This document shows, piece after piece, positions 3,881 through 23,516 of a stretch of DNA of 36,030 bases. The stretch is from Gammaproteobacteria bacterium. GTDB lineage: Bacteria > Pseudomonadota > Gammaproteobacteria > JABABF01 > JAHRAO01. Positions within the stretch are counted from its first letter, which is position 1. Every line of letters starts with the position of its first letter. The position numbers were made by a program, and so were the translations under genes. The stretch covers positions 1 through 36,030 of the forward strand of contig JAHRAO010000037.1 in the NCBI GenBank assembly GCA_020027215.1, given 5' to 3'. Under the pieces are notes generated by a model. It worked only from the letters and a program-made list of their open reading frames with translations. It did no database searches and had not been told where the DNA came from.

Positions 3881-3892
3881 CATATTACGCAT

Positions 3893-3896
3893 GGAG
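3893..3896 (+). promoter_or_regulatory. Ribosome binding site that fixes the murJ start
   Basis: GGAG lies nine bases before ATG 3906. It supports that codon over the in-frame ATGs at 3855 (inside trpE) and 3891. Confidence 0.6.
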
Positions 3897-3905
3897 CGCA
3901 GTACT

Positions 3906-5471: not shown

Positions 5472-5505
5472 TTGTCTTGTTTATCGGGAATCCTATAAAC
5501 CGCTA

Positions 5506-6453
5506 ATGGATATTATTCGGGGCTTGCACAATTTACAACGGCAGCATTCAACTGGTTGTGCGGCAACGATCGGGGCTTTTGACGGTATTCATTGCGGGCA
5601 TCAAAAAATATTGACCCATATCAGTGTAGTGGGTCAGCAAATGCAAATCCCTTCATTAGTGATTACTATGGAGCCACTCCCTCGTGAATGGTTACACCCG
5701 CATGACCCGCCGCCGCGCTTGATGTCATTGCGCGACAAATTAACCACCATCGCCCGCTTCAAAATACAGCACATACTGATTATTCACTTTAATACTCATT
5801 TTGCCTCTATAACGGCAGAAGATTTTGTGCGCCGTTATTTAGCAGACGCATTAGGCGTGCGTTATCTCATGGTCGGAAGCAACTGGCGTTTTGGTCACCA
5901 ACGTGCCGGCGATTATACCCTGTTGCAAAAAATGGCGGATCAATATGGATTCACTGTCGCCCCAGCAGAAACGGTACACTTAGACGGACAGCGCATTAGT
6001 AGCACCCGAATTCGCCAAACATTGTGCGCGGGAGATTTTTCGCTCGCCGCCCGCTTGTTAGGGCGTCCGTATCAGATAACAGGGCTGGTCGGGCGTGGGA
6101 GAGGAAAGGGGGAGGAGTTGCAAGCCCCAACAATCAACCTCTCCGTGCCGCGCAATTGCCCACCCCTTGCGGGAGTCTATATAGTGGAAGTGGCAGGAGT
6201 CATTCCCAGCCAGTATCTGCGTGGTGTTGCTAATGTGGGCACAAATCCGACTATGGTGCGTGAAGGTGTGCCACAATTAGAAGTACATCTGTTGGATTTT
6301 AAGGGTAATCTCTACGGGAAGCGTGTAGAAGTGCTTTTTCGGCAGAGAATCCGCCCCGAAAAACGGTTTCAAACTGTAAAGCAATTAAAATATCAGATTA
6401 AACGAGACATACAAGATGCGCAGAATTTTTTTGATCATTGGCAGGATAAATGA
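5506..6453 (+). CDS. ribF: Bifunctional riboflavin kinase / FAD synthetase
   Basis: Converts riboflavin to FMN and then FAD. The 315-residue protein has the expected two domains. The N-terminal adenylyltransferase has GAFDGIHCGHQKIL and ISSTRIRQTL. The C-terminal flavokinase domain has a glycine-rich segment and the PTxN motif (APTINL), then GVANVGTNPTM and LEVHLLDF. The Gly-rich stretch GRGRGKGEELQAPTINL replaces the more usual GR-LGFPTANL, a modest divergence. An upstream in-frame ATG at 5455 lies inside murJ; ATG 5506 gives the normal family N-terminus. The last four bases overlap the ileS start (ATGA), suggesting coupling. Confidence 0.95.
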   Translation: MDIIRGLHNLQRQHSTGCAATIGAFDGIHCGHQKILTHISVVGQQMQIPSLVITMEPLPREWLHPHDPPPRLMSLRDKLTTIARFKIQHILIIHFNTHFASITAEDFVRRYLADALGVRYLMVGSNWRFGHQRAGDYTLLQKMADQYGFTVAPAETVHLDGQRISSTRIRQTLCAGDFSLAARLLGRPYQITGLVGRGRGKGEELQAPTINLSVPRNCPPLAGVYIVEVAGVIPSQYLRGVANVGTNPTMVREGVPQLEVHLLDFKGNLYGKRVEVLFRQRIRPEKRFQTVKQLKYQIKRDIQDAQNFFDHWQDK

Positions 6454-9251
6454 GTCAATATAAAGATAGTTTGAACCTCCCGCAGACCACTTTCCCGATG
6501 AAAGCAAATTTGCCTCAGCGAGAACCCAATATTTTAGCGCATTGGAAGCAGATTGACCTCTACCGTCAACAACGCGCACAAGCACAAGAGCGGGAGAAGT
6601 TTATTCTGCACGATGGTCCCCCATACGCTAACGGCACAATTCATCTCGGGCATGCGATCAATAAAATACTGAAAGATATTATCATTAAGAGCAAAAACCA
6701 GAGCGGTTTTGATACTCCCTATTTGCCGGGCTGGGATTGCCACGGCTTGCCTATTGAACATCAAGTTGAGAAAAAATATGGCAGAAAAAATGCCGTAGAA
6801 CAGCCTGGCGCGTTTAGAAAAGCATGCGCTGATTACGCGCGTCAGCAAATCGCCCAGCAAAAAGAAGATTTTCAACGGTTAGGGGTGCTCGGTGATTGGG
6901 GTAGGGCATACTACACGATGGACTCAAAAATAGAAGCGGAAATTATTCGCACTTTTGGGCGCTTTGTCAGCGGCGGTTATGTGCAGAGGCGTGACAAACC
7001 GGTGCATTGGTGCTTGGATTGTGCGTCCGCTCTTGCCGAAGCCGAAGTGGAATATAAAAATATCACCTCGCCGTCAATAGATGTGGCATTTGCGGCGTGC
7101 GATCGCTCAGCGGTATTGCAAGCGTTTGGTTGCACCGCACCTAGCGATACTCCCATAGAAGTGGTCATTTGGACGACCACGCCTTGGACGCTCCCCGCCA
7201 ACCGTGCTGTTGCCCTCCACCCCACCGTTTCGTATCAATTAGTGGATGGTGGCGGACGGCTACTCGTGCTCGCTGAAGCGTTGTGCAAGCCATCATTGTC
7301 CCGTTATGCAATAGACAAGTATACCGTGCTCGGATCCTGCGCGGGAAGTGCGTTGGAAGGAAAATTGCTCCAGCACCCATTCTACGATAGGCAAGTGCCT
7401 GTGGTGTTAGGCAATCACGTCACAGTGGATACGGGCAGCGGTGCCGTGCACACTGCACCGGCACATGGATTGGACGATTATCGGTTAGCACAATCTTATA
7501 ACCTTGTCGTGGATAATCCGTTGGATGATAGAGGGTGTTTTCGTGCGCATATGGAACTCTTTGCCGGACTCCATATCTCAAAAGCCAATGAACAGATTTT
7601 GGCGGTGCTTGGTGAGAAAAAGCACTTACTCTCTCTCCGCACCCTTGAACACAGTTACCCTCATTGTTGGCGGCACGGCACGGCACTGATTTTCCGTGCC
7701 ACTCCTCAATGGTTTATTAATTTGACGCATGGACATCTTCTAAAACGGGCGATAGATTCTGTCGGGCAAGTACAGTGGCTTCCGAGTTGGAATAGAGACA
7801 TTATGTTAGAAATGCTCAACGAACGCCCCGATTGGTGTATTTCGCGCCAGCGCGCGTGGGGAGTGCCCATTCCATTGTTTAGCCATGTATCCGATGGAGA
7901 ACTCCACCCCGAAACACCGGCGATTATAGAAAAAGTAGCCGATATGGTGGAAAAAGAGAGCATTCAGGCGTGGTTTGATATCCCGACCAGTGCACTGCTC
8001 GGTGACGATGCCGAGCACTACCGCAAACATTTAGATACATTAGATGTGTGGTTTGACTCGGGAGTTACCCATCAAAGCGTGCTTATTAAACAACCCGAAC
8101 TGAGTTTTCCTGCCGATTTATATGTGGAAGGAAAAGACCAACACCGCGGCTGGTTTCAATCCTCACTCCTCACCGCCGTTGCATTGCGCAATACCCCGCC
8201 CTATCGCACGGTGCTGACGCATGGGTTTGCAGTGGATCATGAGGGGCATAAAATGTCTAAATCACGGGGCAACATTATTACCCCACAAACTGTCATCAAC
8301 AAACTGGGCGCTGATATATTGCGCTTGTGGGTGGCGGCAACCAATTACCGCAATGAAATGACGGTATCGGATGAAATTATGCAACGAGTGGCAGACGCCT
8401 ACAAACGGATACGCAATACATTGCGCTTTTTGCTCGCCAATATTCACGATTTTGACCCCCAACAACACTTGTGTCCATTAGACAAAATGCTCGCCCTTGA
8501 TTGCTGGATACTCCAACGCAGTGCCGAAATACAAGAAAACATTATTGCCGATTACAATAGTTATTCTTTCCACAGCATTTATCAAAAAATACACAATTTT
8601 TGTATTATAGATTTGGGCGGTTTTTATTTAGATATCATCAAGGATCGTCAATATACCATGCCAACCAATAGTCGCGCTCGCCGTTCGGCGCAAACAGCCC
8701 TCTACCATATTAGCGAAGCACTCACCCGCTGGATGGCGCCTATATTGAGTTTCACTGCCGAAGAAATATGGCGGTTACTGCCCGCGCCGCGGGCTGCGTC
8801 GGTACATTTATCCACTTGGTATGATATTCCCACCCCGACCGCACAATCCACTATTGATTGGCAGCAAATTATTGCTCTACGGAATGCGGTGAATAAAATA
8901 TTAGAGGCGCACCGCCACACAAATACAATCGGGGCGAATTTAGAAGCCGAAGTAACGATTTATTGCGCCCCTGAAATACATCACCAATTGATACCGTTGC
9001 AAGATGAATTGCATTTTGTGTTGATTTGTTCGGCGGCATATATCAAACCACTAACAGAGGCGGACGATGCAAACGCTTTGCCCACTACCATAGAAAATGT
9101 TAAAATTACCGCCAGCCCATCGCCGCACGCCAAATGCGAGCGGTGCTGGCATAGGCGAGCGGATATCGGCAGGTACCCTGAGCATCCCCATATTTGTGAG
9201 CGCTGTGTAACCAATATTCTCGGAGAAGGCGAAACCCGTTTTTATGCGTAA
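6450..9251 (+). CDS. ileS: Isoleucyl-tRNA synthetase
   Basis: Charges tRNA-Ile and edits misactivated valine. At 933 residues it matches the bacterial class Ia enzyme. The N-terminus MSQYKDSLNLPQTTFPMKA is typical. The HIGH motif is HLGH at about 65-68, the KMSKS motif at about 601-605, and the editing domain contains WTTTPWTLPANRAV. A C-terminal zinc finger reads CERCWHRRADIG...CERC, as in bacterial IleS with intact tRNA binding. It overlaps ribF by four bases and lspA by eight. The ribF-ileS-lspA order is classical in Gammaproteobacteria. Confidence 0.98.
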   Translation: MSQYKDSLNLPQTTFPMKANLPQREPNILAHWKQIDLYRQQRAQAQEREKFILHDGPPYANGTIHLGHAINKILKDIIIKSKNQSGFDTPYLPGWDCHGLPIEHQVEKKYGRKNAVEQPGAFRKACADYARQQIAQQKEDFQRLGVLGDWGRAYYTMDSKIEAEIIRTFGRFVSGGYVQRRDKPVHWCLDCASALAEAEVEYKNITSPSIDVAFAACDRSAVLQAFGCTAPSDTPIEVVIWTTTPWTLPANRAVALHPTVSYQLVDGGGRLLVLAEALCKPSLSRYAIDKYTVLGSCAGSALEGKLLQHPFYDRQVPVVLGNHVTVDTGSGAVHTAPAHGLDDYRLAQSYNLVVDNPLDDRGCFRAHMELFAGLHISKANEQILAVLGEKKHLLSLRTLEHSYPHCWRHGTALIFRATPQWFINLTHGHLLKRAIDSVGQVQWLPSWNRDIMLEMLNERPDWCISRQRAWGVPIPLFSHVSDGELHPETPAIIEKVADMVEKESIQAWFDIPTSALLGDDAEHYRKHLDTLDVWFDSGVTHQSVLIKQPELSFPADLYVEGKDQHRGWFQSSLLTAVALRNTPPYRTVLTHGFAVDHEGHKMSKSRGNIITPQTVINKLGADILRLWVAATNYRNEMTVSDEIMQRVADAYKRIRNTLRFLLANIHDFDPQQHLCPLDKMLALDCWILQRSAEIQENIIADYNSYSFHSIYQKIHNFCIIDLGGFYLDIIKDRQYTMPTNSRARRSAQTALYHISEALTRWMAPILSFTAEEIWRLLPAPRAASVHLSTWYDIPTPTAQSTIDWQQIIALRNAVNKILEAHRHTNTIGANLEAEVTIYCAPEIHHQLIPLQDELHFVLICSAAYIKPLTEADDANALPTTIENVKITASPSPHAKCERCWHRRADIGRYPEHPHICERCVTNILGEGETRFYA

Positions 9252-9730
9252 AAACATAACATCTCTGTTGCCGTGGTACGCGATTATCATCGCAGTGCTT
9301 GCGAGCGACCAAGTGAGCAAATGGTGGGCTTTGAGCCAGTTGCGATTTGGCATGCAAGAGTGGCTCCCCTTTCTACAAATGCGCTTGCAATTCAATGCTG
9401 GCGCCGCATTTGGCTTACTCAGTGAAGCGGGTGGATGGCAGCGCTGGTTTTTCAGTATCCTCACCGTGATTATCAGCACAGCCCTGTTCATTTGGCTGCA
9501 CCGCTTGCCGGTGAATGCGCGCTTGATGCGTAGCGGTTTATCCTTGATTATCGGCGGGGCTTTGGGGAATTTATGGGATAGAATTGAGCTAGGGCATGTC
9601 ACTGATTTTATCGCCGTGCATTGGAACAATTATTACTGGCCAACTTTTAATGTCGCCGATAGTGCAATTAGTATTGGAGCAATGTTGCTATTGATTGACC
9701 TGTGGAGCGAAGCGCGTGAGGCAAAAAAAG

Positions 9731-9741
<11 letters not shown>
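9244..9741 (+). CDS. lspA: Prolipoprotein signal peptidase (signal peptidase II)
   Basis: An inner-membrane aspartyl protease that removes the signal peptide from diacylated prolipoproteins. The protein has 165 residues and four predicted membrane helices. Conserved blocks are [27 protein letters not shown], and the two catalytic aspartates D121 (VTDF) and D139 (FNVADS). It overlaps ileS by eight bases and ispH by eleven. In E. coli fkpB sits between lspA and ispH; it is absent here. Confidence 0.96.
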
Positions 9742-10733
<992 letters not shown>

Positions 10734-10794
10734 TTCGATTTATTGATTATGCGTGATGGGATTGCGTTTGAAAGCGGGTTGCCTCCTGTGCGTA

Positions 10795-11169
10795 TTATTC
10801 GTCGACATCATAGGTCGTGATTTCATATCGATTGCCATCGGGATCCGCAAAATAAACGGAGAGGGCAAGATCGTGATCCTCTTTGGTAAATTCCACCGCA
10901 TGATCAAGCAAGTGATTTTGCCATTGCATCAATCCTGATTTGTCGGTCAAAAAAGCAACCATTCCGCTGACTTTATCGCAGCTTTCAAATAATGCTAAAT
11001 GAACGCCTCCATTTTGTATCACTAAAGGCCCCCCATCGACCGCCCACACTGCGTACTTTTTCACCGGCTTAAACCCTAAAACATCGGCGTACCATTTTTC
11101 TGAGAGTGCCCTATCTTTAACATAAACGTGGGCGTGATCAATTTTATCTAAAGTTGGTGCTGGGCGCAT
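10795..11169 (-). CDS. VOC-superfamily (glyoxalase/bleomycin-resistance fold) protein
   Basis: A small 124-residue single-domain protein of the vicinal-oxygen-chelate fold. It opens with IDHAHVYVKDRALSEKWYADVLGF and closes with VYFADPDGNRYEITTYD, the two halves of the paired beta-alpha-beta-beta-beta module. Candidate metal ligands are the histidine in IDHAHV and the glutamate in RYEITT. The substrate cannot be told; the family includes glyoxalase I, dioxygenases and antibiotic-binding proteins. It has a perfect AGGAGGT ribosome site (11181-11175), the strongest in the window, and starts 25 bases after the upstream membrane-protein gene, so it is probably the last gene of that operon. It may not be functionally linked to the glycan genes. 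Confidence 0.85.
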   Translation of the reverse strand: MRPAPTLDKIDHAHVYVKDRALSEKWYADVLGFKPVKKYAVWAVDGGPLVIQNGGVHLALFESCDKVSGMVAFLTDKSGLMQWQNHLLDHAVEFTKEDHDLALSVYFADPDGNRYEITTYDVDE

Positions 11170-11174
11170 TTTAT

Positions 11175-11181
11175 ACCTCCT
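11175..11181 (-). promoter_or_regulatory. Strong Shine-Dalgarno site of the VOC gene
   Basis: AGGAGGT on the minus strand, five bases before the ATG at 11169. Most other genes in this window have weak or no ribosome sites, so this one stands out. Confidence 0.75.
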
Positions 11182-11194
11182 AAAATATATTCAA

Positions 11195-12961
11195 CTATTT
11201 ATACACCGCAATATACAAACTATTGTGATCATACTCGATGAGCCGTGAATATTCGCGGCTGGCATACGCAAGGGACTTAACATAAACAATTTGCCAATTA
11301 TACTGCGCCAAAAGATGTTCCACGTTCTCCATTTGAGCGTCATGCTTTTCCTGCCTCCGAATATGCTTCGGAGTGCGGTAGATCCAAGCGATGGGTTCGT
11401 GTCGCCCGCGCACAGTTTTTCCCCATTCTTCGTCATCGTAAGATGCTTTTACATAATACAGTCGCGCTTGATTTAATTGCATCATTTCCATTTGTGGCGT
11501 TGATAATAAAGTGAATACTTTATTGACCCCACGTTCTTCCAACAACATATTAATAGCATGCGGATCAAATAGCTCTTTACGGGGAGCAAGATAACTATCG
11601 TAGTGATACAAGCAACTGGCGAGCACCAGCACACTGAGTAGGTGGTTGACAACGGAAGGGGAGCGATTGCCATCTACTGTCAAATAGCGGGTCATAGCGA
11701 TAATTATCCAATGGGCTCCACTCAAGACGCACAGAACAATAAAAGGCAAAAAGAGCAAACTGTGTCGCGATGGGCTGAATGTCAGTTGTGAAGTCAATAG
11801 CAATGTTATCTGTACTATACCCAAGCTCACACAAAAGATTGAGACAGCATCGGTAACCGAAAATAATCTTTTAATCCATACTAAAAAACCGACACAAAAG
11901 AGTGCAAACACTGTGATAAACATAACGATGGATAGAGCGTTATCTTCGGGTATAAACCCAGTCAAACGGGTGACAACGATATATAGATTGTGGATGAAGA
12001 ACTCTGGGATAGCCGTTAACCCTTGCCAGTTGGCGAATAAAAATTCGCCATTCAGCCCTACATGCCATGAGTTGTGTGGAACTTGATCAAGTTTATAATA
12101 AATGTAGATAATTGCCGGAAAAGAAATGATCGCAAATAACGCCCCGCTTTTCCATATGCGTGCGATGGATACGAGACAAGCTTGCATTAACCTATGTTTT
12201 TTATATTGGCTTACCCATATCATTACAAATAAACATATTCCCACAGCGGCTCCGACAAAAATCATTTGGAATTGAAGATAGATTAATATCCCGCTACACG
12301 CCACTAACATCATCCGCGACTTTTCTGATTGCGGCAAGATGGATTGCCATTTTATGAGTAAATAAGTGAGCCACCCCAGCGCAGGAATGACACACGCGTA
12401 AGGCATTGCTCCCTGCGCAAATCCAATATTTTCTAAAGAACATGCCAATAAACACACCCCCAAAATCGCGTAGGTCGGGTGCGCTTTCCTAAACAACATG
12501 GCGAACACTTTTCCCCAAATGATGAGTCCCAGCACGTAGAAAATGAATGACGGTAATCGTGAGACCACAACAGCGGGCAGATTGTCGCCTGCCAATAGCA
12601 AAATCGCTATCAACGCCGGTTGGATTGGGGCGTAAGTGGTTTTATACCATCCAGTCATAATGGTTGATATAGGTGGGATTATATTTTCTATACGGGGGTA
12701 ACTTTGATGAATAGACCTTAACGATCTTTTGATGATTCCATTATAGGTTGGCGATTTTTCTTCATAAACCCGTTGCCAAAAATAATCCACATTATGATAT
12801 CTTTTGATGAGCCCCACCGCTATCCCAAGATCATCACCATCTCCATAGTAAATCGGTAGTGAACTGGCAACTGTTGCACCCATGAGCACAATAATAATCC
12901 CTATGGCTAAACGCACATCTCCGAGCTTCTGTAGCCAGGTTCTCAATCGGGTGGCAATCAT
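11195..12961 (-). CDS. GT-C-like polytopic membrane protein, putative glycosyltransferase
   Basis: 588 residues with about ten or more hydrophobic segments up to roughly residue 450, then a soluble C-terminal domain of about 130 residues. After the first helix comes a loop with an acidic cluster GDGDD (about 40-44), where GT-C enzymes that use polyprenyl-phosphate sugars carry their catalytic Asp. The segment YAPIQPALIAILLLAGDNLPAVVVSRLPS resembles the second-loop and helix pattern of the PMT/ArnT-like (GT39/GT83) families. I infer transfer of a lipid-linked sugar on the outer face of the inner membrane. I do not recognise a named family. It sits 16 bases after the class II aldolase gene. No ribosome site is visible. 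Confidence 0.6.
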   Translation of the reverse strand: MIATRLRTWLQKLGDVRLAIGIIIVLMGATVASSLPIYYGDGDDLGIAVGLIKRYHNVDYFWQRVYEEKSPTYNGIIKRSLRSIHQSYPRIENIIPPISTIMTGWYKTTYAPIQPALIAILLLAGDNLPAVVVSRLPSFIFYVLGLIIWGKVFAMLFRKAHPTYAILGVCLLACSLENIGFAQGAMPYACVIPALGWLTYLLIKWQSILPQSEKSRMMLVACSGILIYLQFQMIFVGAAVGICLFVMIWVSQYKKHRLMQACLVSIARIWKSGALFAIISFPAIIYIYYKLDQVPHNSWHVGLNGEFLFANWQGLTAIPEFFIHNLYIVVTRLTGFIPEDNALSIVMFITVFALFCVGFLVWIKRLFSVTDAVSIFCVSLGIVQITLLLTSQLTFSPSRHSLLFLPFIVLCVLSGAHWIIIAMTRYLTVDGNRSPSVVNHLLSVLVLASCLYHYDSYLAPRKELFDPHAINMLLEERGVNKVFTLLSTPQMEMMQLNQARLYYVKASYDDEEWGKTVRGRHEPIAWIYRTPKHIRRQEKHDAQMENVEHLLAQYNWQIVYVKSLAYASREYSRLIEYDHNSLYIAVYK

Positions 12962-12977
12962 TGTAGTGCGACAAGCA

Positions 12978-14018
12978 TCATTTGGCTAATTGCTGGCGGT
13001 AATGCTCGGCATCCCAGTTGCATAAGGCTGCGATGTCATGGTGATTTAAAACCTGCACATCGTTTAACGATGGAAGGAATGAGAGAGTATGTAAATAGGC
13101 TTTCAATTGCTCTTGTTGAGCCGTATTAAATCCATCGGCGACAAATACCCCGTCATCTTTGATAAAAATAACGTCGGGTCGCAATGCCTTATCACCGTTA
13201 TCATCACTATCACCACTTTGGTGCTGAAAATGTATTCGGTCGGTATAACACAATGCTTTGGCGCCCAGAAAAACCACATGGTCGGGACAAATCGCCCAAC
13301 ACTCTTGTAGTCCCCGGTATAACGCAGGCTGATATACCAGCTGGTGTATCAGAGGGTCTTGTATCGGGCTATATTCAATACCATTCACGGCGAACCCACA
13401 AATATTTTCGTACGCGGGAATCTGTGGCATAGTCATATCATCCGATAACATTGCCAATAAGCGACCCAACAAAGAGCGCACTTCATCGACAGTTTTCCCA
13501 GCAAGAACGATGCCGTGATTTTGTAACATCAGCAATTTGACTGCGGGGCAATTTTTCGTGTGCGCAAGAACCGCAGACGCTAACTCCGCGCCAGGTTGAT
13601 GGTACGGGATAAACGTCCATTCTGGAAAATGAGCCAATTGAGCCTGCAAGATTTTTTGTGCTGACGATTGGATTAAGTACGCTAATGGTAACAAGGCATG
13701 TAAATGCACTACTATCTTTTGTGGTAACAATGCATGCAATAAAGTTTCAATGGATGGCCGTGCCTGTGCAAGAGAAGTGATTAAGCGCGGTTGAACATTG
13801 CAGTGGCCCTTGTCCAAGAAAGTGCGCAAGTGCTGGTAATCCACTGCGGTGAAGATATCTTGTTGTTGTGCATTTTGAAAACGAGTACCAGACGCTTTGA
13901 CCCAAAGCACTTGACCTTCTTTCCACGATATATTGCCACCTGCTCCTTGCACCAGCAACGGATCCTGTGCGAGATCGACACAAAACTGTTCTATGGCACT
14001 GCGGATCGGTGTGGGCAT
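12978..14018 (-). CDS. Class II aldolase/adducin-family protein
   Basis: 346 residues. The N-terminal two thirds are a class II aldolase fold with the opening GAGGNISWKEGQVLWVKASG, as in the aldolase half of rhamnulose-1-phosphate aldolase/dehydrogenase fusions. The zinc ligands are visible: HLH at 105-107 and NHG with H168. E91 in PSIETLLHALLP is a candidate catalytic acid. The family makes or breaks C-C bonds of sugar phosphates through a zinc enediolate. The remaining ~140 residues are an extension with no dehydrogenase motif. The neighbouring HAD phosphatase and P-loop kinase suggest it makes or remodels a phosphorylated sugar precursor for the surface glycan; the substrate is unknown. 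The start is 32 bases after the HAD gene. Confidence 0.8.
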   Translation of the reverse strand: MPTPIRSAIEQFCVDLAQDPLLVQGAGGNISWKEGQVLWVKASGTRFQNAQQQDIFTAVDYQHLRTFLDKGHCNVQPRLITSLAQARPSIETLLHALLPQKIVVHLHALLPLAYLIQSSAQKILQAQLAHFPEWTFIPYHQPGAELASAVLAHTKNCPAVKLLMLQNHGIVLAGKTVDEVRSLLGRLLAMLSDDMTMPQIPAYENICGFAVNGIEYSPIQDPLIHQLVYQPALYRGLQECWAICPDHVVFLGAKALCYTDRIHFQHQSGDSDDNGDKALRPDVIFIKDDGVFVADGFNTAQQEQLKAYLHTLSFLPSLNDVQVLNHHDIAALCNWDAEHYRQQLAK

Positions 14019-14050
14019 CAGTGCAATGTTCGTGTTGAAAAATACATAAA

Positions 14051-14800
14051 TTACTTATCTTTCAGCTGGGCAATAAACTTGCGCAATTCGCGATAATGCG
14101 TAAAATCGGCATCAGGTTTTACCTGTTCGCTACCTTTTTCTCCATTACTTTGTTTTTTTTGAATGGTGAGCGCCGATAGCGCGGTGCGTGCTCCCTGAAT
14201 ATCGCTTAATGGATGATCGCCGATCATCCAAATGATGCTATCTTTTTTTGCATTGATCTTTTGCAACGCCAACTGAAATGGTGCTTTATGCGGCTTATCA
14301 GCCCCCGCCTCTTCGCTCGTAACGACAAAATGGAAATATTGATCCAATTTCAAATAAATCATTTTGCGAAATTGTATCTGTGCGGTTAAATCAGTCACTA
14401 AGACCATAGGAATATTCAACAGGCGCAAATCGTCTAAGCATAATTTGAGGTCATCAAACAAAACAATGTTACTGATAAATACGCGCCAGTAGGTCTGTTC
14501 AAAATCTAAGGCATGCACCAATTGTGACCCTAGCCCTAATATTTCTAACATGCGTTGGAAATAGAGCACACGGCTGTGCGATGAGGCCGTCTTTTGTAGT
14601 TGTTCTTTAATCTGATTGCGTGCTTCGGCATACGCTTTTTCAACATCGGTCAATGGCAAAGAAAACGAGGTGGCGATTTTTTCGCTGATCGCAGTTAAAG
14701 CAGCCGTATGTGCATGATGGTAATCATAAAAAGTATTATCCATATCAAAAAGCACCGTATCGGGTAGCGAAACAAATTTATCGAGGTTATATACTTTCAC
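14051..14800 (-). CDS. HAD-superfamily phosphatase
   Basis: 249 residues with all four HAD motifs: FDMDNT (nucleophile D19, acid D21), LVTD (about 134-137), K169 in KPHKAPF and GDHPLSDIQGA (about 194-204). A helical cap lies between motifs I and II, as in subfamily I phosphatases such as pyrimidine nucleotidase or phosphoglycolate phosphatase. Likely a small-molecule phosphatase acting on a sugar phosphate from this cluster. It starts with GTG, which shares its first base with the TAG stop of the upstream kinase fusion (TAGTG), so tight translational coupling is expected. Confidence 0.88.
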   Translation of the reverse strand: MKVYNLDKFVSLPDTVLFDMDNTFYDYHHAHTAALTAISEKIATSFSLPLTDVEKAYAEARNQIKEQLQKTASSHSRVLYFQRMLEILGLGSQLVHALDFEQTYWRVFISNIVLFDDLKLCLDDLRLLNIPMVLVTDLTAQIQFRKMIYLKLDQYFHFVVTSEEAGADKPHKAPFQLALQKINAKKDSIIWMIGDHPLSDIQGARTALSALTIQKKQSNGEKGSEQVKPDADFTHYRELRKFIAQLKDK

Positions 14801-16842
14801 TATAGCGCTCTCTGCTCCATTGATTGATTAATATACACGAGAGTGCTCAATTGCATTAAGCCCAACACTCCATCCGCCCAAATTGGATTAATATCTAAAA
14901 AGTCTATCATTTTTGGGCATAATTCTTTTACACACATGGCAATGTCTTCTGCAGACACTGCTCCCTCAATAATTACTTGCTCAAAAACACTATCTACATT
15001 GACTTCGACATGCAATCCTAATAATCCACCCAAAACACGCACTAAATCGGAGTGACCAGAGTGACCGCGCATGGATACCACCAAGCGGTACAGCTTATTA
15101 CTTCCATCACTGTTTGGCGCAGACCAAACAAAATCATCCGCACGAATTGGTTGTATTGCAAATATTAAGTCGGCGTATTGTTTTTGTGGGTGAATAAAAT
15201 TTTGTGCATCGGGAATGCGTTTTTCAATGGCAGCAGTGACTTTCTGTATGGGATGCCCGCGCTCGTGTACATCGCGGGCAATCTTAAAATAACGGCGCAG
15301 ATGTTCATCCATATCTAAATAAATTTTGACATCGTAATGACGGCGCAACGATGGTAGATATAGAGCATGCAATCCATTGACTAAAATGACATGATTTTTT
15401 TTGAGATAGTGCGTCGTGCGCATATGTCCAGTGCGGTGATCGTAGTATGATGTTTTGACTATTTTACCCTGCATAATAGATCTTAAATCCGCCACCATAC
15501 GTTGCAAATTATTTGCACGCGGGTTAAGGTGAGTGAGTACTCTCCACATCGTTTTTTGCCGATCCCACAAATGATAATTATCGCCCAATAAATGCGTGAT
15601 GGATTGCCGCCCAAAAATATTTTCTATGGCACGGCTATAAGTATCTTTGCCCGCGCCCGAATCCCCAGCTATTCCTACGACAAACGGTCGCCTGCTCAAG
15701 CGAAAAAAATCATTGCGCATCACCATTATGTCCCAGATGCGTAGCGACAAAATAATGCCAAACACGGCAATAGTGGTATTCACAATAGATAAGGCATATT
15801 GATGCAAGTGTTGCGTGCTCCCAAATGCGATACTCGGAAAATAGGCAACTATATCGGGAAAAAATGCAAAGATGCTACGTATGGCATAAAGACCACCAAA
15901 CAAGCCGATTAAAATAACCCCAACCCGCTTTTCAATAAATTGGTATCCCACTAGTAGCGTAATTGGCCAGAGAAACCAGCCGAGCGAAGATGGCGATAAC
16001 ACCACCAATAGAAGCAATGCAATGCCTAAAGTGGCATGAAATAATTCAAAATTGACCCATTTTACATTCCAAGCACCGTAGAGCATCAATAAATAGACAA
16101 TGGGCACGAGATAAATTTGATAATCGCCAATGGGCAAGTGTAAGCGCAATGCGGTTGTCATTTCTGGATTGCTAAACAGCATCACTAATGCGGAAGGCAA
16201 TAGCACAAATGGCAGAATCAACAATAAAGTGCCGCTCGCTACACCGCCGCTAAAACGCATTATGATGGAGTGCAAACCCGGATTGCGTATCAAGTAGACG
16301 ATAAAAAATGGGACAACTAACGCCATACTCAATTTAGCTGATATAGCCGCGACTAACGCCACGCCAGAATAAAACCATAATTTGTAGCGAAGACAATATA
16401 GCGACAAAGCTAAAAAGCAAATGGGAACTAAATCATTGTAGCCCAAAAGATAGCTACTGATTATGACAATGGGAGACAACCAATAAGCAATGAATAATAA
16501 GTTCATTGAACCCTTATATATGTTTTTGAGTAGTATCATTAAACAGAGGTCTATCACCAGCAACGCCGCCCAGTAAGCGCCAACAATGGAAATGCCTAGC
16601 AATGAAGCACATAACACAAAAGGGAGGAAATATAGCCACATAGCATAACCATAGGGAAATGACCTGATAATACCTTCATCACGCAACCACAGTTCCCACG
16701 GATTGACCGTCCATTCAGTGACGCTGTGTTGTAGAAAAGGAACATACCATTCTGCAACTGGGGCGGGAGTGACGAAAATAATTAATGCCAGTCGTATGAT
16801 CAAACCGACTATAAACAAAGGATGGCGTAAAACAGCAAGCAT
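14800..16842 (-). CDS. Fusion: GT-C-like membrane domain + uridine-kinase-like P-loop kinase
   Basis: 680 residues. Residues 1 to about 375 form a polytopic membrane domain with about ten helices and a PIG-M/GT87-like segment (SPIVIISSYLLGYNDLVPI, then AKLSMALVVPFFIVYLI). Residues about 387-570 are a phosphoribulokinase/uridine-kinase-type domain: Walker A GDSGAGKDT (about 393-401), GDNYHLWDR, VILVNGLHALYLPSLR and RDVHERG. About 110 further residues at the C-terminus are unassigned. The kinase would phosphorylate a nucleoside, sugar or polyol, and the membrane part may transfer a sugar from a lipid carrier; neither substrate is known. The frame is open across the junction, so this is one protein rather than two neighbouring genes. 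It starts six bases after the GDPD-like gene. Confidence 0.85.
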   Translation of the reverse strand: MLAVLRHPLFIVGLIIRLALIIFVTPAPVAEWYVPFLQHSVTEWTVNPWELWLRDEGIIRSFPYGYAMWLYFLPFVLCASLLGISIVGAYWAALLVIDLCLMILLKNIYKGSMNLLFIAYWLSPIVIISSYLLGYNDLVPICFLALSLYCLRYKLWFYSGVALVAAISAKLSMALVVPFFIVYLIRNPGLHSIIMRFSGGVASGTLLLILPFVLLPSALVMLFSNPEMTTALRLHLPIGDYQIYLVPIVYLLMLYGAWNVKWVNFELFHATLGIALLLLVVLSPSSLGWFLWPITLLVGYQFIEKRVGVILIGLFGGLYAIRSIFAFFPDIVAYFPSIAFGSTQHLHQYALSIVNTTIAVFGIILSLRIWDIMVMRNDFFRLSRRPFVVGIAGDSGAGKDTYSRAIENIFGRQSITHLLGDNYHLWDRQKTMWRVLTHLNPRANNLQRMVADLRSIMQGKIVKTSYYDHRTGHMRTTHYLKKNHVILVNGLHALYLPSLRRHYDVKIYLDMDEHLRRYFKIARDVHERGHPIQKVTAAIEKRIPDAQNFIHPQKQYADLIFAIQPIRADDFVWSAPNSDGSNKLYRLVVSMRGHSGHSDLVRVLGGLLGLHVEVNVDSVFEQVIIEGAVSAEDIAMCVKELCPKMIDFLDINPIWADGVLGLMQLSTLVYINQSMEQRAL

Positions 16843-16848
16843 GCAGGG

Positions 16849-17451
16849 TTATTTATTGAGTAGTGTGTCCCACATTTCTGGATGTTTAGTACACACTGCG
16901 GTGGGTATAATGTTGCGTTTGTTGATTAAGCGGTGAAAACGGGCAATCTCTATTTGAGCATCTCGCCCTTGTAATTCAGGTGAAACCATACACAAGCGAA
17001 ATCCCGCGTCTTTTAATTGCTGTGCCTGTGTACTGTCAATAGGCAAAGTGGAAAAACAATCCACCCACACCCAATTTACCTTCCCAGCAAGCGACAGAGC
17101 CGTTTCAATGGATTCATATTCCGATATTCTCACCGCACAACGCCCCTCGATCCGTTGCGCCCACTTGATTAAGAATGGAAAAGACTGATCAAGAAAGAAA
17201 AAATCTTCTATACCGTGGGCGGACATCAATGTCAAAAGATCTTCTTCCAGTCCTTCCTCTTTAACATTGAGAATTAAAGTTCCGTGGCGATACGCTTGCA
17301 ACCAATCGGCAAATATTTCACCACCACACATGGGGTCATGATGAATAATCAGGTGTTGATCATTACTCCGAATATCGACTTCCACCCCGTATTGTGTCGG
17401 GGTGGAAATCAACAAGTCCACAGTATTACGGCGATGAGCAATAAAATGCAT
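16849..17451 (-). CDS. Short GDPD-like (PI-PLC fold) protein
   Basis: 200 residues, shorter than classical glycerophosphodiester phosphodiesterases (about 240-250). It begins FIAHRRNTVDLL and then has GVEVDIRSNDQHLIIHHDPM, matching the family's opening HR, metal-binding E-x-D and HHDP. The usual HRG-ENT reads HRRNT here. The later barrel strands are present but weakly conserved. It may hydrolyse a glycerophosphodiester-type or related phosphodiester group, or act on a similar bond in the glycan. It lies between gtrA and the kinase fusion with gaps of 17 and six bases. Confidence 0.7.
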   Translation of the reverse strand: MHFIAHRRNTVDLLISTPTQYGVEVDIRSNDQHLIIHHDPMCGGEIFADWLQAYRHGTLILNVKEEGLEEDLLTLMSAHGIEDFFFLDQSFPFLIKWAQRIEGRCAVRISEYESIETALSLAGKVNWVWVDCFSTLPIDSTQAQQLKDAGFRLCMVSPELQGRDAQIEIARFHRLINKRNIIPTAVCTKHPEMWDTLLNK

Positions 17452-17468: not shown

Positions 17469-17858
17469 CTATTGATCAGTTGCTGGCTTAAAGACAAAAA
17501 ACTTCATACCGATAAAGTTGAGAGTGGCAGATATGCCTGTGGCGGCAAGGAATGCAAATTGACGGATGTACTCTAAATCGATAAAAATGCGGTTCAATAC
17601 ACTATTAACGAATACATTGATACCCAAAGTCAAGGCATACAGTAGGATAAAGCGCAATATACTATCGGCTTTCACTGCGGGGCGGTTAAAAGTCCACAAG
17701 CGGTTAGCGAGATATGCAAATACAGTGCCAATAATAAAGCCCGCCGCTTTGGCAAGGTCAATGTCCAACAAACTAATCAGCATTATATAAAAGCCATAAT
17801 CAATGGCGACCGTCAAGGAGCCGACAATTAAAAATATGCCAATTTGCTTTTGTATCAT
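17469..17858 (-). CDS. GtrA-family membrane protein
   Basis: 129 residues with four membrane helices: FLIVGSLTVAIDYGFYIMLI, a second containing AAGFIIGTVFAYLANRLWTF, and two more in the C-terminal half. The NRLWTF segment is the GtrA signature. These proteins are thought to move polyprenyl-phosphate-linked sugars across the inner membrane, often next to a GT2 enzyme that makes the lipid-sugar. That is the case here: the upstream GT2 gene overlaps this one by four bases. Confidence 0.9.
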   Translation of the reverse strand: MIQKQIGIFLIVGSLTVAIDYGFYIMLISLLDIDLAKAAGFIIGTVFAYLANRLWTFNRPAVKADSILRFILLYALTLGINVFVNSVLNRIFIDLEYIRQFAFLAATGISATLNFIGMKFFVFKPATDQ

Positions 17859-18565
17859 TGTAATTGTTTGCGCCTTTTGAGTGTGCGCAGATGGAAACTA
17901 AAACCCATTGTGCGGCGAATAAATTTCCATTTTTCCCGCCAATTAATGTTCCAATGCGATGTACCGTGTACCCGAGGAGCAAACAATACGGGGAAACGGC
18001 GTATTGTCAAATGGTGATGGATTGCCATGTAATAAGCATACAAATCCAATGAAAAATCATAGGGTGGGTTTTTCCATTGGGAAAAGAAATTGCGCCGAAA
18101 TAAAGTGGGTTGAGCATTGATATCCCATAACACTTTTCCCAAAATTAATGTTTCAAAAATGCTCATCCCCCAAGTAAAAATGCGATCAAAAAAAGGACGC
18201 CCATAACGAGATCCTTTGATAAAACCCGTTTGCGGATGTGCAGTAAATATTTTGAGCGCTTCAAGACAATCCAGTGGATTGGTCTGTAGATCTGCGTGCG
18301 TCCAACCTAATATAGCGGCTTGTGCTTCGCGCAAACCACTCAATATACCAAAACCATAACCCTTATTTTCTGTCACATGCACTAAACGCCAATTGGAATG
18401 ATGGGATAATTCGTGTTCAAATACTTTTGCCGACCCATCGTTTGAGCCATTATTGACAAAGACTACCTCAATATCTGCAGGCAGATCGCGGCAACGATCA
18501 AACAAGATCGGTAAATTTTTTTCTTCGTTATAACAAGGGATGATCAACGATAAACGATACGACAT
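17855..18565 (-). CDS. Family 2 glycosyltransferase (polyprenyl-phosphate sugar synthase type)
   Basis: 236 residues. The GT-A fold opening LSLIIPCYNEEKNLPILF is followed by FVNNGSNDGSAKVF (about 36-49), NKGYGFGILSGLREAQAAILGWTHADLQ (acidic metal site at about 88-93) and FIKGSRYGRPFFDRIFTWGMS. This pattern is that of the DPM1/GtrB-like enzymes that load a sugar onto a polyprenyl phosphate. There are no C-terminal membrane helices, so GtrA probably provides the membrane step. The gene is the first of the minus-strand operon running to 10795. The divergent nucleotidyltransferase gene starts 62 bases away; TATAAT-like sequences lie between (18595-18604), without a convincing -35. Confidence 0.9.
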   Translation of the reverse strand: MSYRLSLIIPCYNEEKNLPILFDRCRDLPADIEVVFVNNGSNDGSAKVFEHELSHHSNWRLVHVTENKGYGFGILSGLREAQAAILGWTHADLQTNPLDCLEALKIFTAHPQTGFIKGSRYGRPFFDRIFTWGMSIFETLILGKVLWDINAQPTLFRRNFFSQWKNPPYDFSLDLYAYYMAIHHHLTIRRFPVLFAPRVHGTSHWNINWREKWKFIRRTMGFSFHLRTLKRRKQLQ

Positions 18566-18627: not shown

Positions 18628-20304
18628 ATGCCAACCTTTCTCATGCAGATAGTCATTCCGATGTCTGGCTTCGGTGAGCGTTTTCGCCATGCTGGCTATC
18701 GTATTCCCAAACCCCTAATTGACATTGATGGTAAACCCATGATTGCATGGGTCATAGATTTATTTCCGAATGAAAAAAACTTTTACTTTATTTGTAACCA
18801 AAAACATTTGGATGAAACAGATTTTGGAATACGCGATATATTAAATCATTATTGTCCCCACGGAAAGATCATCGCCATTTCGCCGCACAAATTTGGACCC
18901 GTGCACGCTGTGCAGCAAATTAAATCTCATTTGCGTCCTGATTTACCGGTGGTGGTGAATTATTGTGATTTTAGTTGCTATTGGGATTGGCATACATTTA
19001 AGCGCAGCGTGCAAAAAGATACATCGTGTATGGGAGCCATCCCCGCTTATAAAGGTTTCCACCCTCATTCATTAGGGAATACGCATTATGCCTATATGCA
19101 AGAGCGTAATGGTTGGGTCACCGCCATACAAGAAAAAGAGCCCTTTACTCATAACCGCATGGAAGAATACGCTTCTAGTGGCACTTATTATTTTGCCAGT
19201 GCAAAGATTATGTTCCAAGCATTTGATACCGCTGTCGCACACAACTGGAAAGTTAACAATGAATACTATGTCAGCCTCGCTTACCGCCATCTCATAAAGT
19301 ACAATTTACCGGTCAAAATATACCCTCTGCAACATTTTATGCAGTGGGGAACGCCAAAAGATCTTGCCGAATACCTTCGTTGGTCATCACTTTTTAAGCG
19401 CCTGATGGATAAAATGCACGCACCATCGCCTGCGGGGAGCGTTATAGTGCCTATGGCGGGGATGGGGAAGCGATTTTCCGATGCCGGTTACACGCTTACC
19501 AAACCCCTCATTTCCGTATCTGGTCAACCGATGGTCATACAAGCGACCGATCATTTACCACCCGCTCAACAATATTGTTTTGTGCTGCGCGGCGGCATGC
19601 CGATGAATGAGACCATCACCTGCTTACTCAACGAACACTATCCACAAGCAGTCACGAAAAAATTGGATAAGATGACCGCAGGACAAGCGTGCACGGCATT
19701 GATTGGGTTAGAGGCATTGCAAGAAAAAATGGAACAAGCTGCCGAACCGATCACTTTTGGCGCCTGTGATTTTGCCGCGTTATATGATCATCATATTTTT
19801 GTCAACTTATGCGCTGACCCAACCGTAGATATTATCGTTTGGGGGGTGCGCGGGCACCCACATGCCATGCGCCATCCTGAAATGTATGGTTGGATTGATG
19901 AAAATAATGGCGTTATAAAAAATATTTCAGTCAAGCAACCATTACAAAACCCCACCCATGATCCAATCGTATTGGGTACTTTTACTTTTTGTCGCGCAAC
20001 GCATTTTGAACAAGTGGTTGAACACCTTATTGCACATAATATGCGGGTCAATAATGAGTTTTACCTCGATTCATGCGTGAATGTCGCGTTGGAAATGGGG
20101 CTCAGTTGCCGTTTATTAGAGGTGGAACACTATATGTCGTGGGGCACGCCAAACGACTTAAAAACTTTTGAATACTGGCAATCTTGTTTTAGTCAATGGG
20201 AGGGACATCCCTATCGTTTGCATGATGATTCAATGATTCCGTCCCAAGAGAGCGATGCGCTGGCCTGTAAATACAAAAATTGGTCGGTTATTGCTGGGCA
20301 GTGA
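18628..20304 (+). CDS. Tandem two-domain sugar nucleotidyltransferase
   Basis: 558 residues made of two copies of a GT-A nucleotidyltransferase domain. Domain 1 (about 7-255) has IPMSGFGERF with PKPLI, CDF at about 113-115, VNNEYY (209) and WGTPKDL (240). Domain 2 (about 270-520) has VPMAGMGKRF with TKPLI, CDF at about 380-382, VNNEFY (474) and WGTPNDL (505). Nucleotide-binding, lysine and metal-site residues are present in both halves, so both may be active. The family activates sugar 1-phosphates, or other phosphorylated alcohols, to NDP derivatives. The product here is unknown. The kinase and phosphatase across the divergent promoter region suggest a shared pathway. An internal ATG at 18643 is a possible alternative start; neither has a ribosome site. 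Confidence 0.85.
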   Translation: MPTFLMQIVIPMSGFGERFRHAGYRIPKPLIDIDGKPMIAWVIDLFPNEKNFYFICNQKHLDETDFGIRDILNHYCPHGKIIAISPHKFGPVHAVQQIKSHLRPDLPVVVNYCDFSCYWDWHTFKRSVQKDTSCMGAIPAYKGFHPHSLGNTHYAYMQERNGWVTAIQEKEPFTHNRMEEYASSGTYYFASAKIMFQAFDTAVAHNWKVNNEYYVSLAYRHLIKYNLPVKIYPLQHFMQWGTPKDLAEYLRWSSLFKRLMDKMHAPSPAGSVIVPMAGMGKRFSDAGYTLTKPLISVSGQPMVIQATDHLPPAQQYCFVLRGGMPMNETITCLLNEHYPQAVTKKLDKMTAGQACTALIGLEALQEKMEQAAEPITFGACDFAALYDHHIFVNLCADPTVDIIVWGVRGHPHAMRHPEMYGWIDENNGVIKNISVKQPLQNPTHDPIVLGTFTFCRATHFEQVVEHLIAHNMRVNNEFYLDSCVNVALEMGLSCRLLEVEHYMSWGTPNDLKTFEYWQSCFSQWEGHPYRLHDDSMIPSQESDALACKYKNWSVIAGQ

Positions 20305-20306
20305 TA

Positions 20307-21191
20307 TTAGTGATGAGGGGAAAACAATAAATTGACTTCTATACCTATACCGATGTTAAAATTAAATTCTTTCTTACCGTAATAGGGTAAATTAAATATA
20401 AACCATGGGCGGTACCCAATGATACGCTGAACACTATAATCTTTAGGAAAGAGTGCAAAAAGATCATTTTCATCGGCAAAACTTTTCCAGGTATCATATG
20501 AAAACTCCATAAATACTGCTGGGCGAAATTTCCTCAGCGTCTGTTGTAATCCGGTTAATACTGCTTTTTCATAACCTTCCACATCCATTTTAATTAAATT
20601 TATCCGTTCAAAATTGAGCGTTGCACAATAGTCATCGCCGTTGTATACGCGATATTTTCCTGCAGGTTTATTTCCAAACGCTTTACCACGCACAAAACTG
20701 TTTGTCCCATCGTTTCTTCCATTTGCGACGTAAAATTCCATTTGCCCATCTTCAGCACCTAAAGCCAAACGGTGTAGGCATATATTCTGTATATCATTAT
20801 TGCGAATGTGCTGCTCTAATTGCTGATAAACAGGAGGGTATGGTTCAAAAGCGTGCACTTGACTGCAATGTTGTGCCATCACCAAAGTGTATTGGCCGAT
20901 ATTCGCCCCTATATCAATAAACACCGCATCGGTGCAATCTCGTACAGTATCAATCATCAATTGTGCTTCATTTTTTTCATATCCGCCAAAAAAGTATGCC
21001 ATCCAATCAAGGTAGCGATCAAAATTGCCTACATATCTTAGCCCGTGAAACTGTATTTCAAAATCTTGGGGAGCCATTGTATCTGGGTTTACAAAGCACC
21101 GCAATACCCTTTGGCGAATACCATAACGAATCCAGTCTTGGTGGGCAAACCATCTTAGCAAAGTTAATTTCTGGGAATTATTTTTATCCAT
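20307..21191 (-). CDS. FkbM-family methyltransferase
   Basis: 294 residues. The SAM-binding motif is FIDIGANIGQYTLVMA (about 91-106), followed by HAFEPYPPVYQQLEQHI, and the FkbM-specific motif LIKMDVEGYEKAVLTGL lies at about 199-215. Members O-methylate sugars and other hydroxyl groups, and are common in polysaccharide loci. It is the last gene of the minus-strand group starting at 24700, ten bases after another methyltransferase. It converges with the nucleotidyltransferase gene with only two bases between stops. No terminator is seen there. Confidence 0.9.
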   Translation of the reverse strand: MDKNNSQKLTLLRWFAHQDWIRYGIRQRVLRCFVNPDTMAPQDFEIQFHGLRYVGNFDRYLDWMAYFFGGYEKNEAQLMIDTVRDCTDAVFIDIGANIGQYTLVMAQHCSQVHAFEPYPPVYQQLEQHIRNNDIQNICLHRLALGAEDGQMEFYVANGRNDGTNSFVRGKAFGNKPAGKYRVYNGDDYCATLNFERINLIKMDVEGYEKAVLTGLQQTLRKFRPAVFMEFSYDTWKSFADENDLFALFPKDYSVQRIIGYRPWFIFNLPYYGKKEFNFNIGIGIEVNLLFSPHH

Positions 21192-21201
21192 TGAATAGGG
21201 T

Positions 21202-21957
21202 TTAATCGTTATATTTTTGGGCTATTATATACCACAATAGTGAATGCTTCCATTGCTTAAAAAATAATCTGTCCAAGCGATTAGCGACAATGGCGGCAGG
21301 CACGAGAAACAATTTGGCGAGTGGTGTCCATAACCAACGCAGTATCTTTCTGTCTATATACGGCACGACAAGCGAACAAAAATTGGTGATATATCCCCGT
21401 TCAACAATCAATAAATTGTTGCGCAAAAATTCTTTTTCTAACCAAGCAAAAGTATAACCGCGCCGCACATGACCGCCATCGGTGCGGTTGATATCAAAAG
21501 GCCCAGCGTCATTTTTATCTGCAGTTTTATAAAAATAGTTGGGCGTCGTAAAGAAAATGAATCCGCGATCGTTCAGTAAATCAGACATTGCACCCACCAA
21601 TTTTTTATCGTGCGGGATATGTTCTATATTTTCGCAGTTAATAATGACATCAAATTGCCGATTGAGTTGGGTTAAATCATCGCAATCCAGATTTTGTATG
21701 TCAATATCGTATCCTAATGCTGTTGCCCGCTGGGTAATCTTGGCTGTATTAGCAGCATCGTTACTGATACCAGTAGGGCGGTAACCTTTGCGTGCCGCAA
21801 CAAAAAGCGCCCAGCCATTACCACAGCCCACATCAAGGCACGTGAGTGGATCGGCAGTTTTCGGCAAATATTTTTTAAGCCATACCCAGCGATCGTAAGC
21901 CGCGTTATTGCCGTTATACTTTACGCCAATTAAGCGCACAAACAACTTATACATCAT
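21202..21957 (-). CDS. Class I SAM-dependent methyltransferase
   Basis: 251 residues. Motif I is CLDVGCGNGWALFVAARKGY (about 40-59), followed by the acidic-strand region GISND. Later strands include DVIINCENIEHIPHDKK and GFIFFTTPN, the usual order for Methyltransf_11/23-type proteins of surface-sugar clusters. The C-terminus has a hydrophobic stretch (FLVPAAIVANRL) that may touch the membrane. It starts two bases after the upstream membrane-protein gene and precedes fkbM-like by ten, so the three are one transcription unit. Likely a sugar O-methyltransferase; the target is unknown. Confidence 0.85.
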   Translation of the reverse strand: MMYKLFVRLIGVKYNGNNAAYDRWVWLKKYLPKTADPLTCLDVGCGNGWALFVAARKGYRPTGISNDAANTAKITQRATALGYDIDIQNLDCDDLTQLNRQFDVIINCENIEHIPHDKKLVGAMSDLLNDRGFIFFTTPNYFYKTADKNDAGPFDINRTDGGHVRRGYTFAWLEKEFLRNNLLIVERGYITNFCSLVVPYIDRKILRWLWTPLAKLFLVPAAIVANRLDRLFFKQWKHSLLWYIIAQKYND

Positions 21958-21959
21958 TT

Positions 21960-23516
21960 TTATTGAGTGCGCACACTATAAATATATAAATCATCTCCCA
22001 CGTGCAATTCATTGTAATTTTGCTCTAAATAGCGAGTAATCAGCGGAATAGGGAATTTCTCCACTCCCTCTCCGCGCATGAAACAAGCTTTGTTTTTCCA
22101 TGCGACTAGAGCTTGTATTTTTTGCTCGTGCAATTGGGCGATATAATTCTGTTCAAAAGCGGGGATGTCGCGAATAGTCAAATTTTTTTGCATAACGGTG
22201 TGATTGTTAGCGGGTAATTTATCGGCAACCAAAAAAACACCTTGAGTCACATCATCTAAATAGGCGACTTTATCGTAGGATTTGATTTTCTTTGCCGCCT
22301 CAGTAAAAGTGTGTAAATTCAATTGACAAGACGGATCAACACCCTGTGCCCCGTCAACAACCTGTAAAGGGTAATAACGATTCGTCAAACGCAATTTTTC
22401 CGGTTGATATTCATGCACAATATAAGCGAGTACCCCGCCAATAATACTGATCGCTAATCCGCTTACTACCAATTTTTGCCATAGGCTATGGCTATAAAGA
22501 GCGATATTAATACTAATCAGCAAGGGTAGCAATAAAATATAGTGACTAAAATTCCCGCCACTGACCGCTGATATGCACAAACCCATGCCCACTAAAGCAA
22601 TGTAACCGAACCGCTGGGCGGGCAAAAATTCCCTATAATATCGGAATAATATCCAATAACTCAAATAGATACTCATCACAAAAGGATAAAACACCAAACG
22701 GCCGAGCCCACCTATCCCCTGCCACAAATCACTCAACATAGCGAGCGGATTTATTAAAAAAGGCATAAACACTCCCCTCACTAATCGTGCATAGCGGGGC
22801 TCACTTTCTTGCCCAGCAAACAATAAAGGCGTGATAAGAGTAGATTGCATGTAGCGATAACCCCCCGCTAACTCATAATGCAACGCAATGGATACTACGA
22901 AAAAAATGGTCCCGCATCCGACCAATAAATAATTTGAGCGATTACGCCAAAACCCCTTTTCTGACAGCATAATTGCCGCCGCCAATATAAATGCACTCAT
23001 AATGCCGATGGGCTGTTTCGCATGAAAACTCATCACCAATAAAAGTGCGCTCCATAGCCACCACCATCGCATATGTAGCAAGCGACAGACGAGTGCCGCA
23101 AAAGCAAAAGCGACCGCCAAATTATCGTGATAATAAAACATGGGGAAAAAGAAAAAACTGCCGGTGGCAATACTGCCGACAATAATAATCCATTCATTGT
23201 GGGAGGTGATTTTACGGGCAAATGTGTAGCACAGCACACTCATTACAGATGACAGTAGGGCCATCGCCAGCAAATATGCCCAACCGACAGGCAACAAATA
23301 TAAAAATGGCTGTAGCATAACCTGTGTCCATAGACCATTGGGCATAGTGAAGCCGGACCAATTGCCTTGCTCAAATAACCTGACTGATAGCAATAAGTCA
23401 ACTATGGTGTCTACCTTCAGTGCTACGCCGCTGAGTACCAGCATTGCCCCCGACATCCCCAGTATCGCTACAAGCGCACAGTGCCTTAGAATGATTTGGT
23501 TATCTTTATTCATCAT
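21960..23516 (-). CDS. GT-C-like polytopic membrane protein
   Basis: 518 residues, with about eleven hydrophobic segments to around residue 370 and then a soluble C-terminal domain of about 150 residues. The layout resembles the 588-residue protein at 11195: a first helix, a loop with VDTIVDLL and further helices, with YYHDNLAVAFAFAALVC in an early helix pair and SFHAKQPIG after a later one. I infer a lipid-linked-sugar glycosyltransferase or a related polymer enzyme acting at the periplasmic face, but no family signature is clear. It lies between mutM and two methyltransferases. Confidence 0.55.
   Translation of the reverse strand: MMNKDNQIILRHCALVAILGMSGAMLVLSGVALKVDTIVDLLLSVRLFEQGNWSGFTMPNGLWTQVMLQPFLYLLPVGWAYLLAMALLSSVMSVLCYTFARKITSHNEWIIIVGSIATGSFFFFPMFYYHDNLAVAFAFAALVCRLLHMRWWWLWSALLLVMSFHAKQPIGIMSAFILAAAIMLSEKGFWRNRSNYLLVGCGTIFFVVSIALHYELAGGYRYMQSTLITPLLFAGQESEPRYARLVRGVFMPFLINPLAMLSDLWQGIGGLGRLVFYPFVMSIYLSYWILFRYYREFLPAQRFGYIALVGMGLCISAVSGGNFSHYILLLPLLISINIALYSHSLWQKLVVSGLAISIIGGVLAYIVHEYQPEKLRLTNRYYPLQVVDGAQGVDPSCQLNLHTFTEAAKKIKSYDKVAYLDDVTQGVFLVADKLPANNHTVMQKNLTIRDIPAFEQNYIAQLHEQKIQALVAWKNKACFMRGEGVEKFPIPLITRYLEQNYNELHVGDDLYIYSVRTQ

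Follow-up and report, generated by a model that had tools for sequence, protein, structure and literature searches.

The window, the whole stretch of 36,030 nucleotides that was analyzed, contains a run of genes in one direction that encodes a GT2 glycosyltransferase, a GtrA-family protein, a GDPD-like protein, a fusion of a membrane domain with a kinase, an HAD phosphatase, an aldolase and a 588-aa polytopic protein. A nucleotidyltransferase gene is divergent from this run. The features are listed below, with the evidence for each in brackets.

11195..12961 (-): 588-aa polytopic protein encoded separately (acids DGDD in the loop that follows membrane helix 1; Pfam gave no match)
12978..14018 (-): class II aldolase-family enzyme with conserved E91, H105, H107 and H168 (Pfam, alignment)
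14051..14800 (-): HAD phosphatase closest to ribulose-1,5-bisphosphate (RuBP) 5-phosphatase, with a 1-base overlap with the fusion gene (profile match)
14800..16842 (-): fusion gene, 680 aa, GT-C-fold membrane half and phosphoribulokinase (PRK)-type kinase (frame, Pfam, AlphaFold2, Foldseek)
14803..15696 (-): PRK-type kinase with its own C-terminal region, aa 383-680 of the fusion (Pfam, phmmer, Foldseek, tree)
15376..15378 (-): Asn489, where the EGLH motif has its Mg-site Glu (residue comparison; UCK2 Mg ligands, PMC9163393)
15640..15666 (-): P-loop GDSGAGKDT, aa 393-401, with Asp400 at the PRK Ser/Thr position (residue comparison)
15703..16842 (-): membrane half, aa 1-380, GT-C fold, with D98 and D137 as the only invariant acids (AlphaFold2, Foldseek, profile, alignment)
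16849..17451 (-): GDPD/PI-PLC-like phosphodiesterase with conserved H6, E24, D26, H38 and K64 (RefSeq labels, conserved residues)
17469..17858 (-): GtrA-family membrane protein, a putative polyprenyl-sugar flippase (Pfam)
17855..18565 (-): GT2 glycosyltransferase (Pfam), kept in most cassettes
18628..20304 (+): double-domain nucleotidyltransferase, divergent (domain match), kept in most cassettes

We named the GDPD-like protein (~200 aa) from RefSeq labels and conserved residues because it had no PDB match and no meaningful Pfam match. After the cassette, positions 20307-23516 hold a methyltransferase gene (21202-21957), a second methyltransferase-like gene and a gene for another polytopic GT-C-like protein, and these may be part of the same glycan locus.

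The fusion gene reads as one frame from an ATG start with zero internal stops. The two halves have GC contents of 41.7% (membrane) and 42.7% (kinase). The full-chain AlphaFold2 model has a mean pLDDT of 87.5 and a pTM of 0.86 (14 sequences as input; the models were built without the three plasmid sequences). A single protein spans both halves in ten further loci, giving a total of 11 from Gamma- and Alphaproteobacteria. Full-length fusions occur in an uncultured gammaproteobacterium (38% identity) and in two more gammaproteobacterial genomes (38 and 41%), and three of the ten are plasmid-borne (Escherichia coli, 44%; Azospirillum brasilense, 34%; Hirschia baltica, 34%). The same architecture at 11 loci rules out an assembly or frameshift fusion. 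The original prediction of an uninterrupted single chain was therefore correct; homologues that always occur as two separate genes, which would have contradicted it, were looked for, and fused genes were found at the 11 loci.

We ran a profile of the membrane half alone over 398 Pseudomonadota genomes (E <= 1e-15). It matched the window's own genome and four others, and all five matches sit within frames of ~680-720 codons. These genomes thus yielded no membrane half encoded on its own. The fusion is rare, occurring in 5/398 Pseudomonadota genomes with the window's genome counted. Viral spread was considered and rejected, as viral contigs held no relative and phage records gave kinase-length matches with at most 26% query coverage.

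The membrane half had been predicted to be a polytopic GT-C-like domain of about 375 residues, and the structural comparisons agree. Simple hydropathy gives ~9 hydrophobic peaks, and the AlphaFold2 model has helices through aa 8-375. GT-C enzymes make up all of the top Foldseek matches among solved folds (GPI mannosyltransferase I, TM 0.67; ALG6, 0.60; PimE, 0.55; also ArnT and ALG9), with modest E-values (best 8e-4). An independent profile match to GPI mannosyltransferase 1 was found at 3.6e-5, and one fusion member gave a weak match to Pfam GT87 (9e-4). GPI mannosyltransferase I needs an acid in its first loop, and its relative PIG-U has SSW there (PMC12653191). Across the fusion alignment, no conserved Asp or Glu was found in the first periplasmic loop. 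D137 is in a later loop, and many aromatic and Gly/Pro residues are invariant. Because the first-loop acid of GPI mannosyltransferase I is not conserved, transferase activity of the membrane half is doubtful. By analogy with PIG-U, a role in docking a lipid or a complex, or an atypical transferase activity, is more probable for this half than that of the acceptor-specific enzyme.

The kinase half is PRK-type, not uridine-kinase-type as first proposed. Pfam PRK (PF00485) matches aa 388-565 (E 2e-40), and the closest solved relatives are phosphoribulokinases (phmmer, 1e-39). In the phylogenetic tree, which we used to test for membership in the uridine kinase clade, the 11 fusion kinases form one group (support 99/96) on the PRK side, with uridine kinases separated at 100/100. 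The tree and the residues together rule out an ordinary uridine kinase. The nearest free-standing kinase relatives include PRKs from Rubisco-bearing genomes, and RefSeq labels relatives as either "uridine kinase" or "phosphoribulokinase". A Calvin-cycle PRK is ruled out, as no Rubisco was found in seven fusion genomes and the residues differ; the genome of an eighth fusion (L003) had one weak Rubisco-like match. The 110-residue tail, originally listed apart from the kinase, turned out to be the PRK C-terminal region and not a domain of its own. PRK structures align with the kinase half over ~310-325 columns with the tail included (~315 columns for 9qkp in Foldseek, TM 0.80 by target length), and in the phmmer alignment to 9qko, the matched part of the 300-residue query (kinase plus tail) is residues 2-264. 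The kinase half should be cytosolic because it lies beyond the last membrane helix and requires ATP.

The Walker A motif is at aa 393-401, where it had been placed, and its Lys is invariant across the 11 fusions. It had also been called intact, but this part of the description does not stand: the motif reads GKD and not GKS/T in 9/11 fusions, with Asp replacing the Ser/Thr, and the EGLH Glu is replaced by Asn, Thr or Ser in 11/11. This Glu is present in 7/7 PRKs and 11/11 uridine kinases compared. Residues at the positions that we take to bind ribulose-5-phosphate or to act in catalysis in PRK are invariant in all 11 fusions (D421, H424, R428, H469, R523, D524 and R528), with K520 in 10/11. 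The role of the Asp-His dyad in PRK has been described (PMC9978339). The Mg ligands of UCK2 are Asp62, Ser34 and Glu135 (PMC9163393), and by motif position these match D421, D400 and N489 of the fusion. Having Asp plus Ser in place of Ser plus Glu thus resembles a trade of one set of metal ligands for another. In L003 and L033, neither changed position has an acid, which speaks for reduced activity in these proteins. With the Mg-site Glu lost in every member and both acids lost in these two, kinase activity of the fusion is not assured from the residues.

The neighbors had been correctly named as GT2, gtrA, phosphatase and aldolase genes, and the proposed link to a lipid-linked (polyprenyl-sugar) type of cassette is supported. 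The GDPD-like, fusion and HAD genes are adjacent in 11/11 loci, the aldolase was found in 10/11, and most loci also have the double nucleotidyltransferase, GT2 and GtrA. The best-scoring family for all 11 HADs is RuBP 5-phosphatase (up to 2e-56); the window's HAD scores 155 bits against NCBIfam NF053830, under the 330-bit cut-off. The class II aldolase Glu and three His, whose zinc-site roles we assume from FucA, are conserved in 10/10 aldolases, and the enzyme is closer to the RhaD type than to ribulose-1-phosphate aldolase. Several cassettes have separate polytopic proteins with acidic first loops near the fusion. In the window, the 588-aa polytopic protein is probably the acceptor-specific GT-C. 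GT2, GtrA and a separate GT-C (assigned by topology only) are thus in one unit, as is characteristic of Gtr-type systems.

Other plasmids carry related clusters in which the GDPD-like and nucleotidyltransferase genes occur without the membrane half or the aldolase. The fusion, the RuBP-phosphatase-like HAD and the aldolase therefore come together as one package. L055, L056 and L057 are glycan clusters without a PRK that combine the GDPD-like family with nucleotidyltransferase and HAD genes. Relatives of the nucleotidyltransferase are named "glycosyltransferase family 2" on several plasmids, probably a misannotation. In E. coli ES3, an eight-gene cassette is located between two IS26 copies, and the same DNA was detected in 2/5426 E. 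coli genomes. At L058 (NZ_JCAPUP010000005.1, 2901-15077), the eight-gene cassette of an E. coli plasmid shares the stretch between two IS26 copies with a disrupted gene for an AIDA-repeat autotransporter; an IncR plasmid from human stool carries the same DNA.

Heptose activation proceeds in the order kinase, phosphatase, nucleotidyltransferase (HddA, GmhB, HddC). We interpret the cassette, as our best reading, as a donor-making module for Gtr-type surface-glycan modification, in which the kinase and phosphatase would yield a pentulose- (or pentose-) 1-phosphate. The kinase would phosphorylate ribulose-5-phosphate, or a close 5-phospho-pentose, on C1, and the HAD phosphatase would then remove the 5-phosphate to leave a ketopentose-1-phosphate. 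The aldolase would act at the same ketose-1-phosphate node, splitting or forming ribulose-1-phosphate. By the logic of heptose activation, the double nucleotidyltransferase would activate the product; as in Gtr systems, GT2 would load the sugar on polyprenyl phosphate, GtrA would flip it, and the separate, variable GT-C would transfer it. There is a haloarchaeal precedent for the central steps, in which RuBP is converted to ribulose-1-phosphate and then to DHAP and glycolaldehyde (PMC9700705). The analysis itself shows the fusion with its PRK ancestry and GT-C fold, the conservation of the cassette, the retained sugar-phosphate residues and the changed Mg site. The HAD and aldolase matches, the IS26-flanked E. 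coli unit and the separate polytopic proteins with acidic first loops also speak for the model. We tentatively propose, a little short of even confidence, that a membrane-tethered PRK-type kinase forms the core of a mobile cassette whose products build an unusual sugar from a pentose and attach it to a surface polymer. More tentative still is the evolutionary reading: a PRK may have been recruited out of carbon fixation, its Mg site rewired, and the enzyme joined to a GT-C-fold module to produce a new pentulose- or pentose-derived lipid-linked donor by a route that moves between bacteria as one cassette. A literature search on xylulofuranose as the product gave nothing useful.

Several points speak against this model: the Mg-site Glu is lost throughout, the window's HAD scores under the family cut-off, the aldolase is closer to the RhaD type, the model assigns no step to the GDPD-like enzyme, and a ketose-1-phosphate is not an anomeric phosphate, which makes it a questionable feed for GT2. 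A pentose-1-phosphate product is therefore a serious rival. The kinase half could convert ribose-5-phosphate to ribose-1,5-bisphosphate, leading to ribose-1-phosphate and an NDP-pentofuranose donor, or its substrate could be a lipid-linked sugar phosphate on the cytoplasmic side of the membrane. An aldose-1-phosphate would be a better match for the nucleotidyltransferase and GT2, the membrane half could place a lipid-linked substrate within reach, and the Mg-site change is clade-wide. However, all PRK ribulose-5-phosphate-binding residues are kept, and the HAD is closest to RuBP phosphatase, whose studied member is RuBP-specific, so we consider a different substrate unlikely. The metal site also bears on whether the kinase half works at all. 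As a pseudokinase, it could bind a pentose phosphate and serve as a regulator of, or scaffold for, the membrane half, which would fit the universal loss of the EGLH Glu and the two members lacking both acids. We find this improbable given the invariant P-loop Lys, catalytic Asp421 and His469 and sugar-phosphate residues, the P-loop Asp that appears in 9/11 members as if substituting for the lost metal ligand, and the HAD and aldolase neighbors, which suggest a working pathway.

A different division of labor would make the membrane half itself a periplasmic GT-C transferase, with the kinase attached to make or control its donor. The GT-C fold, the invariant D137 in a later loop and the many invariant aromatic and Gly/Pro residues are consistent with this. 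Yet its first loop lacks a conserved acid at the site of the GPI mannosyltransferase I catalytic base, and separate polytopic proteins with acidic first loops are encoded near several fusions, making this arrangement somewhat unlikely. Finally, the RefSeq names of the relatives could be taken at face value, as an ordinary uridine kinase or Calvin-cycle PRK joined through an assembly error. This is scarcely credible, as the tree and residues set the fusion apart from uridine kinases, seven fusion genomes have no Rubisco (with the weak match in an eighth), and the architecture is the same at 11 loci.

The occurrence of the same fusion with the same set of surface-sugar genes across distant bacteria suggests that pentose phosphates are turned into cell-surface sugars by a route not yet described. 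If the model of a donor-making cassette is correct, a pentose phosphate becomes a surface sugar through phosphoribulokinase chemistry outside carbon fixation, carried out by a naturally occurring kinase whose metal site has been altered. It would also mean that the database names "uridine kinase" and "phosphoribulokinase" are wrong for these proteins. Two E. coli isolates carry the complete cassette on plasmids, which opens the pathway to direct tests in laboratory strains of this species. We found no paper that treats phosphoribulokinase, GtrA and O-antigen together, and wider literature searches turned up nothing relevant (most subscription journals were outside their scope). None of the papers found describes the fusion architecture, the changed metal site or the complete cassette; the fold of each half is already known, and the surrounding genes resemble known systems.

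Compared with phosphoribulokinases (PF00485; 9qkp, 6hzk, 6gve and 5b3f), the kinase half has the same full fold with its C-terminal region and the same ribulose-5-phosphate-binding and catalytic residues, but it sits behind a GT-C-fold membrane domain, has the Mg-site Glu replaced and usually a GKD Walker A, and occurs in genomes without Rubisco. The membrane half shares its predicted fold with GPI mannosyltransferase I (Gpi14/PIG-M, GT50) and the GT87 enzyme PimE but lacks a conserved first-loop DxD or acid and has a kinase attached. PIG-U of the GPI transamidase also has a GT-C fold that has lost the first-loop DxD, but it is a eukaryotic transamidase subunit with no kinase. Like the GtrA/GtrB/GtrC systems for O-antigen modification, the cassette combines GT2, GtrA and polytopic GT-C-like proteins, and it adds its own kinase, phosphatase, aldolase, nucleotidyltransferase and phosphodiesterase. 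The haloarchaeal non-carboxylating pentose bisphosphate pathway shares an HAD resembling RuBP 5-phosphatase and a class II aldolase at ribulose-1-phosphate, although the aldolases are distantly alike; there, RuBP comes from ribose-1,5-bisphosphate isomerase and no glycan genes are involved (PMC9700705).
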